In this document: piece after piece, positions 26,255 through 44,446 of the stretch
How the letters are laid out: the number at the start of each line of letters is the position of its first letter
Position numbering within the stretch: position 1 is the first letter of the stretch
Assembly: GCA_018065435.1 (NCBI GenBank)
Contig: JAGHTK010000026.1
Coordinates: forward strand, 1-44,590
Length of the DNA stretch: 44,590 nt
Direction: 5' to 3'
From: Candidatus Alistipes equi
GTDB taxonomy: Bacteria > Bacteroidota > Bacteroidia > Bacteroidales > Rikenellaceae
The notes under the pieces: model-generated
Told to the model about the DNA's origin: nothing
What the model saw: the letters and a program-made list of their open reading frames with translations, nothing else
Databases searched by the model: none
Translations under genes and position numbers: made by a program

Positions 26255-27001
26255 CTAATTGCGTCGGTTGTTTACTAGGGTAAAATAGTAAAGTAGTGTT
26301 GCAATGGCCGAAAGAGCAGCAACCACATATGTTCGCGCCGCCCATTTAAGAGCAATTTCCGCACCCTCGGCCTCTTCATCGCGCAGTATTCTAGAACTTT
26401 CAAGCCAATCAAGAGCTCTGTTCGATGCATCATACTCCACCGGAAGGGTAACCAGCGAAAATACGGCAGACATCGCAATCATACCAAGACCAATCCAGCA
26501 TATAATCTGGCTTGAGGTGGATGCTGTCATTACAAGACCAATCATTATTACAAAGAAGGCCGCTCTTGATGAGAAGTTCACAATCGGGACAAGGGCACTA
26601 CGAAGGCGTAGTGGGGCATAACCTTCAGCATGTTGTATTGCATGGCCACATTCGTGGCATGCAACAGCCAGTGCTGCGACAGAATTGGATGAATAGACTC
26701 CATCAGAAAGGTTAATGGTCATTGTCTGAGGATTGAAATGGTCGGTCAACTCACCGCTTATGTGTGTGATTTTGACATTTGTTATTCTATGTGCCTGAAG
26801 CATTCGTTCGGCGGCTTGTGCTCCTGTCATATATCCCGGAGCAGGTACCTTGGAATATTTAGCGAATACATTTTTGAGTTTTGCCTGGACAATGAATCCT
26901 ATTATTCCTACTGCAATGATGAGAAAGAAGGCTTCACTTGTTGTCAGATTGGACATAGCTCCACTATTCTCGGAATAGGTTGTAAAAAGTGTTGTCAGCA
27001 T
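26255..27001 (-). CDS. Membrane zinc metallopeptidase (YugP-like)
   Basis: HECGHAIQHAEGY (HExxH), KYSKVPAPGYMTGAQAAERML, TM segments. ATG at 27001 chosen because a TATTTTTG -7 box (27025-27032) lies inside the longer ORF. Confidence 0.88.
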   Translation of the reverse strand: MLTTLFTTYSENSGAMSNLTTSEAFFLIIAVGIIGFIVQAKLKNVFAKYSKVPAPGYMTGAQAAERMLQAHRITNVKITHISGELTDHFNPQTMTINLSDGVYSSNSVAALAVACHECGHAIQHAEGYAPLRLRSALVPIVNFSSRAAFFVIMIGLVMTASTSSQIICWIGLGMIAMSAVFSLVTLPVEYDASNRALDWLESSRILRDEEAEGAEIALKWAARTYVVAALSAIATLLYYFTLVNNRRN

Positions 27002-27101
27002 AATTTTTCTTATTTTATCAAATGCAAAAATAGTCATTTTCTCACAAAGTCAGTTCTTTTGCCTCAGGAATACGTTTTGCTTCTTTGCTCTAAAGAAGAA
27101 C

Positions 27102-27133
27102 TTTGCAAATTGCTGATAGTTTGCTTATTTTTG
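27102..27133 (+). promoter_or_regulatory. Consensus Bacteroidetes promoter upstream of the mini-ORF and giant lipoprotein
   Basis: TTTG (27102-27105), 20-nt spacer, TATTTTTG (27126-27133). Confidence 0.65.
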
Positions 27134-27217
27134 GTTGAGGTCAGAATGATTTTATGTAATTATTGTATCTCAAATCATTTGCAGAACTTGATTATAAACA
27201 CCCAAAATTATTTAGAG

Positions 27218-27346
27218 ATGAAGTATCAACATCCAATCGTAAGACAAATTTTTTTTAATGGAGGAAATTATCTTTTTGCCACATCAAACCAGGAGGTGGA
27301 CGTTACTACAGGAGAAGAATCTGGATGGGAATTTGAACAGGATTAA
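27218..27346 (+). CDS. 42-aa small acidic peptide MKYQHPIVRQIFFNGGNYLFATSNQEVDVTTGEESGWEFEQD
   Basis: ATG at 27218 to TAA 27344-27346, whose last base abuts the ATG at 27347; downstream of a consensus promoter; resembles short MKYxxP peptides seen in Bacteroidales. Sits in frame within the supplied 26738-27346 ORF. Confidence 0.55.
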   Translation: MKYQHPIVRQIFFNGGNYLFATSNQEVDVTTGEESGWEFEQD

Positions 27347-30300
27347 ATGATTGTGGCTATGAAAAAGACATTTTTATTATTGGCTACAATCCTTATAGCC
27401 GTATTATTTAGTTGTACAAAAACTGGATTTGAAGAGCAGGATTCTATTATAGATAAAACTATTTTGGGAGTCACGCATGCTAATTTGGATACTAAAACAT
27501 ATCTGGGAGAAGGTGTAACTTCTCGACCTATATTATGGAAGGCAGGTGATAAGATTATTGTCAACAAGGGCGATATGAAAGGAGCACCGGGACTAGTATC
27601 CCAGGAATATGATGGCAAAGCTTCGGCTATCATTCCTTTAGAGTCATATATGGCAGCACCATTCAATGTACTTTATCCTGCCGAGGTTATGGCGGAAGAT
27701 GGCACAATTTTATTGGATGAAGTACAGAGTTTTGTTTCCAACAATGTAGCAAGTGGTACTGCGATTTCTGCCGGATATAGTATGTCAGATGACATATCCT
27801 TGAAATGTTTGTGCGGATTTATAAAATTTACCATTACACAACAAAGCGACGAAGAGATAGAAAGCCTTACAATATCATCCATTGGTGGAAAGGCTATGTC
27901 TGGAATTTTTGATATAGACTATAATACTCCATCAATGACATGTCTATCAGGAAAGGATTTCATCAGAATAGAAAACGTTTCATATACCAATGGAAAAGCA
28001 GAAATAATTGCAACAATTCCTGCGGGAACATATGAGGGCTTTCGTGTAAGAATCCGTTCCAACAAAGAAAAGAATAATATGATGCAGGCGCATCTTACTA
28101 AAAACGCCTCGACGGTTGATATGCTGGGTGGAACCATGGTAGACCTAGGTGTAATACCTTTTAATCCCAACTCAAGTGCAAAAGAGATTACAACTGCTCA
28201 GCAATTTCAACAGTTTCTAAATGATGTGTCTTTAGGTGACTATACAAAGTGGGTGGACGAAAAAAGTGGAGAAGTATTACTTGGGTCAGATATAGATTTT
28301 GCAGGAGCGGATATCGTTAGCGCAACTGCTTCATTCGCAGGAATTCTCAATGGTCAGGGCTATGCTTTGAAAAACACGACATTCAAACAGGCGATATTTA
28401 CTAATTTGACAGGAACAATAAAGAATATTGTTTTGGATGAAACATGTACGATTATCTTCCCTTCAACATCTGGAACAAAAGAGGTTAGAAATGCTGTTCT
28501 TGTTGAGGTGTCTGAAAAAGGATCTGTCATTTCGGGATGCGTATGCAAGGCCATCTGTCCAAAGGTTAATCATACAACAGTAGGGCGACATTTCTTTGGC
28601 ATTTTTGCAGCACGCAGTTATGGACTTTTGCAGAACTGTATAAACTATACAGATGTCGATCTGGAATTTTCAAATATGGATGCAACCATAGACATGGGAT
28701 TGCTTGTTGGTGCCACCAGATATGCATACTGCAGTGTTGAAGAATGTGTCAACTTCGGTGATTTCACACTGACTATCCTCGGCAAAGACAATAATGTATA
28801 CATGGGAGGAATTGTCGGTGTATATACAGCATCAAATGTTGAGAAATGCATAAATCATGGAAATATAACTTATAATTATTCTTCCTCTGGAACCGGGCTT
28901 CCGTATGTAGGTGGAGTGTCTGGCGCAAACGGAAGCACATCTGCATGCGTACTTACTTCCTGCGCGAATTATGGTAATGTCACACTTTCATCATCCGGAA
29001 AGGTTTATAGACCTTACGTTGGAGGTGTTATAGGCTCAGCTTCAGCAACAATTACATCATGTCGTAACGAAGGGTGTGTCAAAGTTGTAGGAACATATGC
29101 GCAAAAGACTGTTTCAGATGTAACATACTATCCTTCCATTGGTGGAATAGTAGGAATTAATGGTGATGCAGACCATGCACGTACCATTGCAGGTTGCGAA
29201 AATGGAGGAGATGTACTTATGGAAAGTACACCAGCATCTGCAACCTACTCTAGAGGTGGTGGTATTGCCGGATTAAACTATGGTACAACAATGGAATGCC
29301 TCAATAAAGGTAATATTCATATTCTGGACTGCGGAAAGGATCATTATGCGGCTGGAATTGTTGGTATTACAACAGGTATAGTATGTACCATAAAAAATTG
29401 TCGCAATGAAGGAACAATTTCCGGGTCGACTACTGCAGGTACCAATTGTAGTCTGCTCCTTGGTGGAATTGTAGGACGTGAACGTGGTGCTGAAATTTCT
29501 TCATGTACAAATGTTGGCGAAATTCATGCTGATGGTGGACAAATCAATGCCGGAGGTATTGTCGGTATGTTGCTCATTGCCTCCACCCATAGCATTTCGG
29601 ATTGTGTTAATGACGGATCAATTATTACATATACATCAAACTCCACAAGCACGGATATTAGTGCTCGCGTTGGAGGTATTGTTGGTTATGCTGGCAAATA
29701 CAAAACTGAATATACAATATCAGGCTGTACGAATAACGCCGATATAAATGTGACAAATGGCGGATCCAATTCATACTACCGCGTAGGTGGAATTATAGGG
29801 TATGGAACACGTGCAAACATTTCAAATTGCGTAAACAATGGAATGATAAATGTTAAGGGTGATGACACATACTCTTGTACAAAGACACAATATGTAGGCG
29901 GTATTGTTGGATACCCTTGTAATGATGATGGATACGAAATTATTGGTTTGAAAGACTGTATTAACAATGCCAAAGTTGAAGATTTATCCTCAAGTAAGGT
30001 GTATATAGGAGGATTGGCGGGAGCTAATTTCATAGAACTTCCTAATCCTGGAAGAAATTATGGTGAAGTATATGCGAAAAATGCTGCACAGGAAAGTGCT
30101 GTGGGTGGAATAGCCGGCTATAACGCCTCAACAATTAGCAATGCCTGGGTTCAATGCAAGGTACATAATGGTTCATCGAACAATGTTTATACAGGTGGCG
30201 TAGTCGGAACACAAAACGCTTCGGCAGACATTCTTGGAGGGTATGTGAATGTGGATGTGTCAACGACAAACACGGGCTTTGTGGGTTTAATTGTAGGAAA

Positions 30301-32221
30301 TCAATATACAGCTACCACAAAAATTGGTTTGGGCTCCCCGTCAGGTAAAATCATGCTGAGTGAGCAGTGTCTTGTTCAGGGTAAGAAGATAGGAAATCCT
30401 CCTACGAAGCAGGAACTTGTCGGTAATATCAAAGAAGAAAGTTTAATCGAAATCAATGGAATAGGCACTGCAGTGCCAACTACAGGTCTTATTTCCTATG
30501 ATGACAAAGCTACCGTTATCGCAGGACGTGGTGGAGATGGTTCTCTGTTTATTTCTGTTGGCGACGAAGATGTCGACATCACTATGACACCATCCGGTTG
30601 GATTCGATTCAGTTCCACAACTCCTTCATCCGCTTTAGCCGGAACAGCTATAAGTCTTAGCTATAATGCCATTGCCAATATGATGGAAAATGAGCGAAAG
30701 AGTGTTGTCCGTATTCAGGGTAAGACATCAGGTCAATATCAAGATATAGTATTCACACAACAGAATGGTGACTGGTTAAAAACAAACGGGGCAGTGTATG
30801 CACTCCCGGCTCGTTGGGTAAATGGATCTACCGCACGTCAGAAAAATGCTGACTTATGGAATAGGTATGGTTATTATGAATCTGCTTACGGGAATATGGA
30901 TGCTAATAAAACAGGAGGATATATTACGTATGTGCGAGCTGATGAAAATGAAGCTTTATGTCCTTTGCAGCGTTCCATATATGAAAATGGACCAGCATTG
31001 AGCAATCTAGCACCTGGAGATTATTGGCTTATAGTAATGCCTGATGTTACAGCTGAAGCTGGTACATGGTTTGAATTCTATGCAACCTTAGCTGGTGCAA
31101 AGAAGAGTAGCAAATACTTTGTCATGGAATGGAAGGATGGAGACGAGTGGAAATGTTTAGAAGACAGGTTGTTCGCTGCTGCCGAAAATCCTTCGTTGAA
31201 GTATTCCTATGCAATCTCGGGTGATGGTATATCGCACTGCTCAACATTCGAATGTGCATTCCCTATTACAAAAGCATTGCAAAAGCAAAATCTCTACATA
31301 CGTCTACGTCCTGTAGGCACATATGCTGCAGATGGCTCTACACATAACATCAACAATACAGTAGAAGCAGAAAGTGGATTTATGTATGCAAACTATGCTG
31401 CTGCATATGTAAATAAACTTGTAGGTCCAAGACCAAGCGTTCGTAAAAAAGTGCTATTCATAGGAAACTCCCTTACTTTCTACTATAATACCATCGCAAA
31501 GACAAAACAGTTGTGTTGGACTCAGGGAGTTGAAATAGATGCTTACGGATACTTGCATGGTGGTGCTGTGTTCTATGAGCATATGGATTGGGATTTCTCC
31601 AAATACGTAATGGCATTAGGTGGTTATGATTATGCAATTCTTCAGTGCGGAGCACGTTCTATTGGACGTTATGGTAGATATATATCACCTTCAGGTTCAG
31701 ACATTGATGCGGATGAAATAAATACATGCAAGAAATACCTAGAAGGATATGATGACATTCAAAATTGGGTTAAGAAATACTCTCCAAATTGTCAAATAAT
31801 TCTTGAACAAGACTGGCGAACCAAGTCAAATGCTACGAACTACGTATCGGATTACAATATTCAAGCAGAGGGATATACCATATCCGAGGCAAATAGAATG
31901 AAAGTGTGTGATATATATATTGACAGAGGTCATGCGCAATGGGCAAAGCTATATCCTATGGTATGGGAATCTCCAGTGGGCGATTCATTCAGATACGTAT
32001 GGGATGTATCAAATTGGGGTTACAATCTATACTATACAGATTCTTACCATGAGAATAATGATGGCGCATACCTAAAGTCCTGCGTTAACACGCTGATGCT
32101 TTGTGGCAAAAAGAAGTTCACATCATCAATAATTAGCATAGACGCCGTCGATGACACTGTTGCAAAAAATCTACAATATGCAGCAGAACACGCTGTTGCA
32201 CCAAAGACATATTTTGAATAG
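27347..32221 (+). CDS. Giant surface lipoprotein: fimbrillin-like N-terminus, GLUG-like GGIVG repeats, BACON-like domain, C-terminal DUF4886/SGNH-like hydrolase
   Basis: 1624-aa ORF; lipobox FLLLATILIAVLFSC; LDTKTYLGE...WKAGDKI; many GG(I/V)(V/I/A)G...CxNxG units; ITMTPSGWIRFSS...SVVRIQGKTSGQYQDIVFTQQNGDW; KKVLFIGNSLTFYYNT and DSYHENNDGAYL. The true start may be 27359 (MKKTFLLL). Confidence 0.85.
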   Translation: MIVAMKKTFLLLATILIAVLFSCTKTGFEEQDSIIDKTILGVTHANLDTKTYLGEGVTSRPILWKAGDKIIVNKGDMKGAPGLVSQEYDGKASAIIPLESYMAAPFNVLYPAEVMAEDGTILLDEVQSFVSNNVASGTAISAGYSMSDDISLKCLCGFIKFTITQQSDEEIESLTISSIGGKAMSGIFDIDYNTPSMTCLSGKDFIRIENVSYTNGKAEIIATIPAGTYEGFRVRIRSNKEKNNMMQAHLTKNASTVDMLGGTMVDLGVIPFNPNSSAKEITTAQQFQQFLNDVSLGDYTKWVDEKSGEVLLGSDIDFAGADIVSATASFAGILNGQGYALKNTTFKQAIFTNLTGTIKNIVLDETCTIIFPSTSGTKEVRNAVLVEVSEKGSVISGCVCKAICPKVNHTTVGRHFFGIFAARSYGLLQNCINYTDVDLEFSNMDATIDMGLLVGATRYAYCSVEECVNFGDFTLTILGKDNNVYMGGIVGVYTASNVEKCINHGNITYNYSSSGTGLPYVGGVSGANGSTSACVLTSCANYGNVTLSSSGKVYRPYVGGVIGSASATITSCRNEGCVKVVGTYAQKTVSDVTYYPSIGGIVGINGDADHARTIAGCENGGDVLMESTPASATYSRGGGIAGLNYGTTMECLNKGNIHILDCGKDHYAAGIVGITTGIVCTIKNCRNEGTISGSTTAGTNCSLLLGGIVGRERGAEISSCTNVGEIHADGGQINAGGIVGMLLIASTHSISDCVNDGSIITYTSNSTSTDISARVGGIVGYAGKYKTEYTISGCTNNADINVTNGGSNSYYRVGGIIGYGTRANISNCVNNGMINVKGDDTYSCTKTQYVGGIVGYPCNDDGYEIIGLKDCINNAKVEDLSSSKVYIGGLAGANFIELPNPGRNYGEVYAKNAAQESAVGGIAGYNASTISNAWVQCKVHNGSSNNVYTGGVVGTQNASADILGGYVNVDVSTTNTGFVGLIVGNQYTATTKIGLGSPSGKIMLSEQCLVQGKKIGNPPTKQELVGNIKEESLIEINGIGTAVPTTGLISYDDKATVIAGRGGDGSLFISVGDEDVDITMTPSGWIRFSSTTPSSALAGTAISLSYNAIANMMENERKSVVRIQGKTSGQYQDIVFTQQNGDWLKTNGAVYALPARWVNGSTARQKNADLWNRYGYYESAYGNMDANKTGGYITYVRADENEALCPLQRSIYENGPALSNLAPGDYWLIVMPDVTAEAGTWFEFYATLAGAKKSSKYFVMEWKDGDEWKCLEDRLFAAAENPSLKYSYAISGDGISHCSTFECAFPITKALQKQNLYIRLRPVGTYAADGSTHNINNTVEAESGFMYANYAAAYVNKLVGPRPSVRKKVLFIGNSLTFYYNTIAKTKQLCWTQGVEIDAYGYLHGGAVFYEHMDWDFSKYVMALGGYDYAILQCGARSIGRYGRYISPSGSDIDADEINTCKKYLEGYDDIQNWVKKYSPNCQIILEQDWRTKSNATNYVSDYNIQAEGYTISEANRMKVCDIYIDRGHAQWAKLYPMVWESPVGDSFRYVWDVSNWGYNLYYTDSYHENNDGAYLKSCVNTLMLCGKKKFTSSIISIDAVDDTVAKNLQYAAEHAVAPKTYFE
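28588..30310 (+). repeat. Tandem degenerate protein-coding repeats (GGIVGxxxxxxxISxCxNxGxI)
   Basis: About 15 units read in frame, e.g. GGIVGVYTASNVEKCINHGNI, GGVIGSASATITSCRNEGCV, GGIVGRERGAEISSCTNVGEI, GGIIGYGTRANISNCVNNGMI, GGLAGANFIELPNPGRNYGEV. Confidence 0.8.
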
Positions 32222-41537: not shown

Positions 41538-43172
41538 TTACCACTTGTAACAAAGTGATATGGCAAGATTGTGACGTAATAGTTTCGAATTGAAAATACC
41601 ACTTTCATTTCGTGCGCCAGTCTGATCGTTTATCGAATAGTAGAGAAGATAGTCCGTTAAGGAGTCTCTGCGGTAGGCATATGAAACATCTAGGCGAAGG
41701 TTGTCCAGAAGCTTGAAACCAACTCCACAACTAACGTTCCAGGCCTGTTCTACAGCTGCGTTCGAAAGAATTGTATCTTTTTTTACCATACGTGAAATAA
41801 TGCCACCACCTGCTCGTAGATAGGATTTTTTCATTGGAATTTCAAGACCTACACGTACTATGTGGGCATTTTGAAAGTTATTTGCAATGTCATTGTTGTA
41901 TGATGAAACATTGAATGGAGCCCCACTATAGGACATGGCACTATATCGGTCGTATTCGTAGTCTGCAGATAAGATGGCATATGGAAATGTGTATGAGATA
42001 CCTGTAAGAACGCGTGTTGGTGAAGAAAATTTCCATCTATATTCGCGTTCATCGATAAGAAGTCTTGATATCTCTTGAGCACTTATTATACCATTTGCCG
42101 TTCTGGCTTCGGATGTCATCATTGCTTCATATTGATAGCTCACCGAATAATAGGTTGGAGTGTGGATGGCAAGACCTATTCTGAGCATACTTACCGGGCG
42201 GAGTGTGATGCCAAATTTTGCTCCAACACCTATTCCGGATATTTTCGTTGATTGCTCGTAGCCAAATGTGCGAAGTTGTGATGGCAATTCGTCAAATGAC
42301 GGTTGTTCACTATAGTTAATATTTTCGCCGTAATAAATATTTTGCGTACGTCGGATAGTAGCAATATCTATTGATGCACCAAAATAGAGTACATTATTAA
42401 GATTTGCACCAACGGCAAAGGATATCTCTCCTGCCGAACCACGGCTACGTATGTTGTAAAAATGATTCATCAAGGCTCCGTTTCCGATTTCGTCAGGATA
42501 CCACTGATTTGAAGTTGGATTGTTAATAAGTCCGCATTTATATGCTAGTACATCTCCCCAGTAATACGGATTCATATTGAAGTCCACATATCCGTTTCGG
42601 TCCGTAATCCGATTTTCGTTATTGATGTATAGTTTACCTCCCTGTGCCAGATCCGAAAATGCATCCGCGAGCGAGCCCACGTTGTCGTATGATACGAAAG
42701 AGCGGTTGTAATTGTAGTCAGCTAGTTTATTGTAAGAGATGGCGAATGTAACAGACTTGATGCGACTGTTTGCTTTGTAAAGGTTAAGTGCAATACCAAT
42801 GTTGTTGAAGCCAAATCTTGTATTTGTGTTTTTGCCGTTCGACATATCCATAGCTCCAGTAGTTGTGGCGCGATCGATGTTGAAGGCCATACTAAAGGAA
42901 GCGTCATTGTGCTGATACATACCAAGTCCTGCAGGGTTGTAGGCAACTGCTGCCAAATCTGCTCCAAGTGATGTAAAGGCTCCTCCCATCGCATGAGAAC
43001 GGGCCGTGGAGAACGTTTGTCTTTGGGATAGTTCTAACAAATCCGTTGTTGAAATAATGTCCCTGTCAAATACGGCCCCTCCTATTGTATAGGAGCTGGA
43101 ACCATCTTGTGCATTGGCGGCGATACACATCCAAATGGCCAATGTATATATTATTACGCGAAAAGTTTTCAT
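41538..43172 (-). CDS. Outer-membrane beta-barrel protein (OmpP1/FadL/TodX-like)
   Basis: Signal peptide; ARSHAMGGAFTSLGADLAAVAYNPAGLGMYQHNDASFSMAF; long amphipathic beta pattern ending ...LRHNLAISLCYKW (terminal aromatic). Confidence 0.8.
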   Translation of the reverse strand: MKTFRVIIYTLAIWMCIAANAQDGSSSYTIGGAVFDRDIISTTDLLELSQRQTFSTARSHAMGGAFTSLGADLAAVAYNPAGLGMYQHNDASFSMAFNIDRATTTGAMDMSNGKNTNTRFGFNNIGIALNLYKANSRIKSVTFAISYNKLADYNYNRSFVSYDNVGSLADAFSDLAQGGKLYINNENRITDRNGYVDFNMNPYYWGDVLAYKCGLINNPTSNQWYPDEIGNGALMNHFYNIRSRGSAGEISFAVGANLNNVLYFGASIDIATIRRTQNIYYGENINYSEQPSFDELPSQLRTFGYEQSTKISGIGVGAKFGITLRPVSMLRIGLAIHTPTYYSVSYQYEAMMTSEARTANGIISAQEISRLLIDEREYRWKFSSPTRVLTGISYTFPYAILSADYEYDRYSAMSYSGAPFNVSSYNNDIANNFQNAHIVRVGLEIPMKKSYLRAGGGIISRMVKKDTILSNAAVEQAWNVSCGVGFKLLDNLRLDVSYAYRRDSLTDYLLYYSINDQTGARNESGIFNSKLLRHNLAISLCYKW

Positions 43173-43190: not shown

Positions 43191-44291
43191 TTATCTGCCT
43201 CGTGCATTTCCACCTCCGGAATAACCTCCACCTCCGGAATAACCTCCGCCTCCAGAGAAGCTTCCGCTACTGCGATAGCTACTGTTTCCACTATTTTGGT
43301 ATGAAGAGCGGGTAGATGAGTTGTTTCTATATGTTGTGGAGCCGTTACCTCTATTGTAGGAGGTGTTACCGCGTGTCGCTTCTGTGTTGCGTTGATAGCT
43401 GTTTGACTTAGGACTCCTGTAATTACCGGAATGGGCACCACCTTGTCCTCGGTAATTATAATTTGTACTTCGGTCAGAGTGAGAGTATCCGCTTCGACGA
43501 TACGTGGCCGGGCGTCCAACGTAAGGTGATGGATGATATGGCCACCAACCTGGGTGATAAGGACGCCATCCAGGATACCATGGACGCCATCCAGGATACC
43601 ATGGACGCCACCCCGGGTGCCAAGGATGCCAAGGATGCCACCAAGGACCATATATTGAATCCCAATAACAATACGAAAAATGTACATTAATATTTAATGA
43701 TGATGCATAGTGGTAGTATGGATTAACGATTGTTGCGCCCCACGTCCCAAACATTGCAGTAATAAATTTTGGCTCTACCCATACTTCGTCTCCAGATATC
43801 ATAACGTTATAATAGCCTGGATCGTAAGTCGTTGCATAGAAATAGGCGTCGGAATACTGAGCATTGATATAACTTGCCGGCATTCTGTAAGAGAGTGACG
43901 CCATGCCTTTTAAGCGCCTACTACGAGCCTCTTCATAGGTTTCAACAAGAACGTTACCGAAACTCAATTCCTCTAGTTTCGTATTTTGGGGTTGACTAAC
44001 GATTTTGACATTGTTACCAACTGGTTCGTTCGTTCCGTAGAATTCGTTCTCGATGCTAGCAACCCTTTCAGATGCCGTCATTGCGCTTCTGTCATAGGAT
44101 ATGTAAGAATTAGGTGTAGTCGCAACTGTAGCATTTCCTGATGTTTTTGCATAAACGGATTCGTGGGAAGGCTCAGAAAATTTTTTTTGGATGGTATACA
44201 TGTCATCACTCTGCGAAGTCTGCAGAGCTGCAGAACATCCTGAAAGAACAAGAATCTGCAGTAATCCAACAATTTTTGACCTGTGTCTCAT
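43191..44291 (-). CDS. Lipoprotein with Trp/His/Pro/Tyr repeat and R/S/N/Y/G low-complexity tail
   Basis: MRHRSKIVGLLQILVLSGCSAA lipobox; WHPWHPWHPGWRPWYPGWRPWYPGWRPYHPGWWPYHP; tail ...SGGGGYSGGGGYSGGGNARGR. ATG at 44291. Confidence 0.7.
   Translation of the reverse strand: MRHRSKIVGLLQILVLSGCSAALQTSQSDDMYTIQKKFSEPSHESVYAKTSGNATVATTPNSYISYDRSAMTASERVASIENEFYGTNEPVGNNVKIVSQPQNTKLEELSFGNVLVETYEEARSRRLKGMASLSYRMPASYINAQYSDAYFYATTYDPGYYNVMISGDEVWVEPKFITAMFGTWGATIVNPYYHYASSLNINVHFSYCYWDSIYGPWWHPWHPWHPGWRPWYPGWRPWYPGWRPYHPGWWPYHPSPYVGRPATYRRSGYSHSDRSTNYNYRGQGGAHSGNYRSPKSNSYQRNTEATRGNTSYNRGNGSTTYRNNSSTRSSYQNSGNSSYRSSGSFSGGGGYSGGGGYSGGGNARGR
43540..43648 (-). repeat. 21-bp tandem repeat encoding 7-aa GWRPWYP units
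   Basis: Units ggacgccatccaggataccat at 43561-43581 and 43582-43602 are identical; 43603-43623 and flanks are diverged copies. Confidence 0.85.
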
Positions 44292-44446
44292 AGCGTTTCG
44301 TTTTGAATGAATAACGAAATTTCCCACACAATATTATATGTGATTTCTATTACAAAATTATTGAAAATTTGTTAATAGAGCCTGTGGATAGGAATGGAGT
44401 GACTTTTTTAGAGGGTGAAAAGTAAAATTTGAAACAATAAATATGA

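Follow-up and report, generated by a model that had tools for sequence, protein, structure and literature searches.

The open reading frame at positions 27347–32221 on the forward strand of the window (the whole stretch of 44,590 nucleotides analyzed here, from Candidatus Alistipes equi) encodes a five-module lipoprotein of a gut Alistipes-type (Rikenellaceae) bacterium. With a probability of about 0.6, we read it as an esterase that removes O-acyl groups from carbohydrates at the cell surface, or as a diverged derivative with a binding role, carried in either case on a fimbrillin/GLUG scaffold. An esterase of this kind is favored because the C-terminal part has a CE2-like layout and relatives are found with SusC/SusD, amylase, CBM26, and rhamnosidase. 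The lipoprotein would be anchored in the outer membrane and is probably surface-exposed; its fimbrillin-fold head and GLUG β-solenoid would act as scaffold and spacer, holding a C-terminal unit of BACON, jelly-roll and SGNH modules. Within this unit, the jelly roll may bind polysaccharide and the SGNH domain would remove O-acyl, most likely O-acetyl, groups through Ser1375-His1568-Asp1565.

The features of the gene are as follows (all on the + strand):

27347–32221, +, whole gene of the modular lipoprotein (1624 aa), with no internal stop; exact match in its own genome (G000:C102)
27359–27415, +, probable start codon (M5) and the signal peptide of the lipoprotein, up to the lipobox LFS-C23
27470–28162, +, head with fimbrillin (FimA/Mfa-like) fold, approximately aa 42–272 (N-terminal AlphaFold2 model and Foldseek)
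28187–30346, +, GLUG repeat solenoid, approximately aa 281–1000 (Pfam PF07581, motif counts, AlphaFold2 model)
30539–30766, +, BACON-like β-sandwich, approximately aa 1065–1140 (AlphaFold2 strands, hhalign to the BACON modules of relatives)
30794–31417, +, jelly-roll, carbohydrate-binding-like module, approximately aa 1150–1357 (AlphaFold2, Foldseek, relatives)
31439–32197, +, SGNH hydrolase domain, DUF4886-related, approximately aa 1365–1617 (AlphaFold2 α/β/α fold, Foldseek, family profile)
31469–31471, +, Ser1375, block I nucleophile (GNS), invariant in the alignment of relatives (A3)
31559–31561, +, Gly1405, block II oxyanion glycine, kept here and conserved in 90% or more of A3
31643–31654, +, Q1433-C-G-A1436, block III, changed from the Q-D-x-S of the clade, Q invariant
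32039–32050, +, D1565-S-Y-H1568, block V DxxH, with both D and H invariant in A3

The Gene and Its N-Terminal Scaffold

The frame is open across 1624 codons, and the second ATG (27359, MKK) is probably the conserved start of the lipoprotein gene, favored because MKK begins most of the paralogues. The lipobox described in the earlier note is present, and its cysteine (C23) aligns with, and is conserved as, the cysteine of related lipoproteins. The gene has the same GC content as the window, evenly along its length, so that recent transfer from DNA of another base composition is not indicated. Scans for promoters and terminators yielded chance-level results. The open reading frame directly upstream (26738–27346) is probably spurious and overlaps the antisense strand of a zinc peptidase gene.

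In searches with the protein itself, GLUG was the sole Pfam match, NCBIfam returned chance-level matches only, a PDB sequence search with the single sequence gave nothing useful, and a search for phage relatives found none. A close orthologue was not found either, the best match having approximately 36% identity in the C-terminal part. Structure prediction with AlphaFold2 combined with Foldseek showed the folds of the modules and their order: fimbrillin-fold head, GLUG coil, BACON-like sandwich, jelly roll and SGNH hydrolase domain.

The N-terminal AlphaFold2 model, of moderate confidence (pLDDT 61.5, shallow alignment), contains a β-sandwich head followed by short strands stacked regularly along the repeats. 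The head matched the structures 4h40, 3sy6, 3t2l, and 3ufi in Foldseek (E-values of 8e-6 to 3e-5), and more weakly Mfa3 and FimA1, so that the fimbrillin-like head proposed earlier does have a fimbrillin fold in this model; the same fold is also common to putative cell-adhesion proteins. No pilus genes or operon were found beside the gene among the window open reading frames scanned.

The repeats that follow, previously described as GLUG-like, passed the Pfam cut-off for GLUG (PF07581; E = 7e-11, 42 bits vs. 20.5). Motifs of the type [GA]G[IVL][IVAS]G occur 14 times, compared to a mean of 0.25 (maximum 3) in 2000 shuffles, and C.N.[GA] motifs 12 times, compared to a mean of 0.53 (maximum 4). 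The coil comprises about 14 GLUG units, of which the canonical GG.VG units span aa 487–954, and its end-cap resembles that of paralogues without a payload. Most repeat blocks were modeled with a pLDDT of 65–92, with low-confidence gaps between them, and the coil weakly matched 3n6z and the IgA1 protease 7uvk in Foldseek. Among the papers searched, none linked GLUG with fimbrillin.

The C-Terminal Unit

The C-terminal part (aa 1028–1624) was modeled with a pLDDT of 83 and a pTM of 0.84 and resolves into three units, the BACON-like sandwich, the jelly roll and the SGNH domain. Pfam BACON (PF13004) has no match in the window protein itself; nevertheless, hhalign aligned this module with the BACON modules of relatives (E = 2.4e-5, probability 76%; control 0.25) and the model predicts a β-sandwich, which agrees with a BACON-like module below Pfam detection. 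Between this sandwich and the SGNH domain lies a jelly roll of approximately 200 aa that the earlier note had overlooked. Most of its blocks have a pLDDT of 80–97, it matches the N-terminal domain of CE2 enzymes as well as CBM6 and CBM4 in Foldseek, and its pairing with the SGNH domain is kept in 66 of 80 SGNH relatives. Two lipoproteins that have no SGNH domain (L053:3657–5351 and L053:10481–13120, genome G023) likewise carry a jelly roll close to their C-terminal end, so the jelly roll is an independent module.

Among PDB folds, aa 1028–1624 best fit the CE2 acetyl-xylan esterases 3u37, 2wao, and 2w9x, which have two domains (E-values of 1.7e-9 to 3.6e-8). Because the full-model TM-scores are low, the match concerns the layout and the domains rather than their exact arrangement. 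The SGNH domain matches CE2, EstL5 and Axe2, and Foldseek also returned the peptidoglycan O-acetylesterase 4k3u and lipase-like GDSL enzymes. With its GNS and D..H motifs and this fold, the C-terminus is that of an SGNH hydrolase, as had been claimed. The assignment to DUF4886 holds in part. The window protein does not reach the cut-off of the Pfam model (PF16227), but among relatives taken from the same genus and from GTDB genomes, 12 of 22 in one set and 16 of 32 full-length proteins in another do match it, and the profile built from their alignment, which places the domain near this family, matches the PDB entries 4s1p (9e-13) and 4i8i (1.6e-10). The domain is related to DUF4886 and probably works like it, but is no strict member. 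A review from 2022 lists no DUF4886 member with a known function (PMC9487903).

Paralogues and Relatives

The module order of the window protein is found in a single polypeptide in the Alistipes-type MAGs L055, L056, L057, and L060. In L082 (genome G030), on the other hand, 18 bases separate the stop of the head-GLUG gene from the start of the next gene, which encodes the BACON-like, jelly-roll and SGNH modules, and in L061 the two halves are similarly adjacent genes; fused in some MAGs and adjacent in these loci, the two halves co-occur in several lineages. Such neighboring genes could have been joined by accident, or by the assembly, in the window. We consider this very improbable indeed, given the fused polypeptides in four other MAGs, the permuted order in paralogues from the same genome (jelly roll and SGNH ahead of GLUG in C41 and C18), the 1624 open codons and the even GC along the gene.

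The tree for counting independent GLUG fusions could not place the window row, which was too long, and the GLUG profile used on it under-labels L055, L056, and L060. Genomes of the genus with the jelly-roll and SGNH unit have 12–93 GLUG candidates, vs. 5–28 in those without it (p = 2e-5), an association that shared ancestry, in one subclade, may explain.

Two further arrangements were observed. The protein at L076:2647–7311 contains two SGNH domains, a DUF4886 domain (approximately aa 441–679) surrounded by GLUG-like stretches and a C-terminal jelly roll with SGNH. In L056 (1–3603) and L060 (2–3538), a second long open reading frame with GLUG repeats and DUF4886 lies directly upstream, placing two such enzymes in tandem.

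The genome itself (2.08 Mb, 85% complete) encodes about twelve relatives of the head or of the GLUG repeats, which show the paralogous scaffold joined to different enzymes. These include calcineurin-like phosphoesterase modules (MetallophosN/C) in C160 and C69, Lipase_GDSL_lke in C1 and C27 and DUF4886 in C92 (1.4e-76), while C169 and C158 have no enzyme part. Judged from these matches, the fimbrillin-GLUG scaffold is reused for several enzymes in this genome. The "unusual architecture" noted earlier is thus a rare combination, yet the protein is one of a set of reshuffled lipoproteins; known parts have been recombined, and this is no new kind of system. Among the paralogues, C160 (G000; L038:6047–10420) is a head-GLUG lipoprotein of 1458 aa with both MetallophosN and MetallophosC modules.

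The window genes scanned beside the lipoprotein gene are ordinary housekeeping genes, without SusC/SusD or CAZyme genes among the open reading frames scanned, in agreement with the earlier statement that it is not part of an obvious polysaccharide utilization locus. Two adjoining open reading frames further along (41538–43172 and 43191–44327, - strand; 544 and 378 aa) have no Pfam match. The genome has one weak SusD match, compared to a median of 4 in the genus. Around the relatives of the SGNH unit the picture is different: L058 and L093 lie beside SusC, SusD and α-amylase, with CBM26 modules, L062, L065, L072, and L109 lie beside α-amylase genes and L086 beside a rhamnosidase gene, and CBM26 is carried by 5 of 32 relatives scanned; as the search for SusC/SusD and amylase around relatives had limited sensitivity, the counts of these neighbors are lower bounds. 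In at least six loci (L072, L062, L065, L109, L058, and L093), the SGNH gene and an α-amylase family gene are no more than 6 kb apart, and the amylase-adjacent relatives could possibly de-acylate α-glucans. Nothing tested points to the host glycans or mucin suggested in the earlier note; relatives occur beside amylase or rhamnosidase or with CBM26 starch modules.

An esterase whose substrate is no carbohydrate, or lies in the envelope of the cell itself (O-acyl groups of peptidoglycan, lipid or capsule), rather than in dietary or host glycans, would fit the lack of such locus genes among the window open reading frames scanned, the near absence of SusD from the genome and the matches to 4k3u and lipase-like GDSL enzymes. 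We regard it as improbable, considering that the jelly roll and SGNH domain have the CE2 layout and that relatives are associated with amylase, rhamnosidase, SusC/SusD, and CBM26. The same associations tie DUF4886 to carbohydrate modules, including a CE2-like jelly roll, and make a role as carbohydrate O-acyl esterase directly testable.

The Active Site and Its Divergence

The alignment of relatives showed GNS, Q, D, and H to be invariant, and the triad residues named earlier (Ser1375, D1565, and H1568) are all kept in the window protein. The clade lacks the block III Asn of the SGNH superfamily, which normally completes the oxyanion hole (PMC9487903), and has a Gln (Gln1433) throughout. We infer that Gln1433 replaces this Asn in the oxyanion hole. 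Block III of the clade reads QDxS, with D in 37 and S in 40 of 41 relatives, and the S is present also in 4i8i and 4s1p; the window copy reads QCGA and has lost both, an alteration overlooked before.

The domain as a whole is extremely diverged. Its end branch is by far the longest among 88 relatives (2.42 changes per column vs. a median of 0.15) and its identity to the consensus is the lowest of 42 (35% vs. a median of 56%), with 16 of 19 near-invariant positions kept. Since the D and S of block III are lost and the branch is by far the longest, activity is uncertain, and the claim of a surface esterase or deacetylase stands in part: the CE2-like pairing supports a carbohydrate esterase, whereas the altered block III and the divergence leave esterase activity of this domain plausible but uncertain.

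The same two features could mean that the SGNH domain is no longer catalytic, or is ceasing to be, and that the protein is now mainly a surface glycan-binding or adhesin lipoprotein whose working parts are the jelly roll, the coil of GLUG repeats and the head. The sharing of the head fold with putative cell-adhesion proteins and the existence of payload-less head/GLUG paralogues, by which the scaffold would be useful by itself, agree with this explanation. We nonetheless consider it rather unlikely: the nucleophile, the block II Gly and the block V Asp and His are kept amid near-total change elsewhere, a sign that the active site is probably still under selection. The domain is either under altered selection or moving toward a non-catalytic role, and we favor a working or altered enzyme.

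Comparison With Known Systems

Three features stand out: DUF4886-type enzymes are linked to carbohydrate modules, one scaffold serves several enzymes, and block III of the window copy is unusual. Interchangeable enzymes on one scaffold suggest a route to surface display outside classical polysaccharide utilization loci. In a subgroup of this Rikenellaceae genus, which is rich in GLUG lipoproteins, and with few SusD proteins in this genome, the fimbrillin-GLUG coil might be a general surface scaffold that takes exchangeable hydrolases (DUF4886, GDSL, calcineurin-like phosphoesterase), as an alternative to SusC/SusD-centered glycan processing. We hold this broader proposal to be doubtful; if true, the window protein would be one cartridge whose oxyanion site has changed and whose acyl specificity may be new.

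The CE2 enzymes (Est2A 3u37, CtCE2 2wao, and CjCE2 2w9x) share the N-terminal jelly roll and C-terminal SGNH domain with the window protein, at approximately 10% identity and without a sequence-level match; no CE2 entries were found in the PDB sequence searches. In many CE2 enzymes, block V has no functional Asp. This residue is invariant in the window clade, and CE2 enzymes do not have the other modules. DUF4886 (PF16227, SGNH clan; solved relative 4i8i) is alike in the GNS of block I, the DxxH of block V and the Gln of the block III region, but the window protein adds the jelly roll, BACON module, GLUG coil and head, and has a changed block III.

For the N-terminal part, the Bacteroidales fimbrillins (FimA/Mfa, 4h40, 3sy6, and 3ufi) have the same head fold and lipoprotein start, whereas the window head has no Pfam fimbrillin match and is joined to a long coil and an enzyme. 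GLUG-repeat or IgA1-protease-like coils (3n6z and 7uvk) share the GLUG motif and a weak solenoid-like fold match; unlike these, the window coil precedes an esterase unit, and no protease domain was found. Finally, the BACON-SGNH lipoproteins of Bacteroidales have a similar core of BACON, jelly roll and SGNH; L087 shows it without GLUG, as does L082 with two BACON-like stretches, whereas in the window protein this core is fused behind the head-GLUG part.
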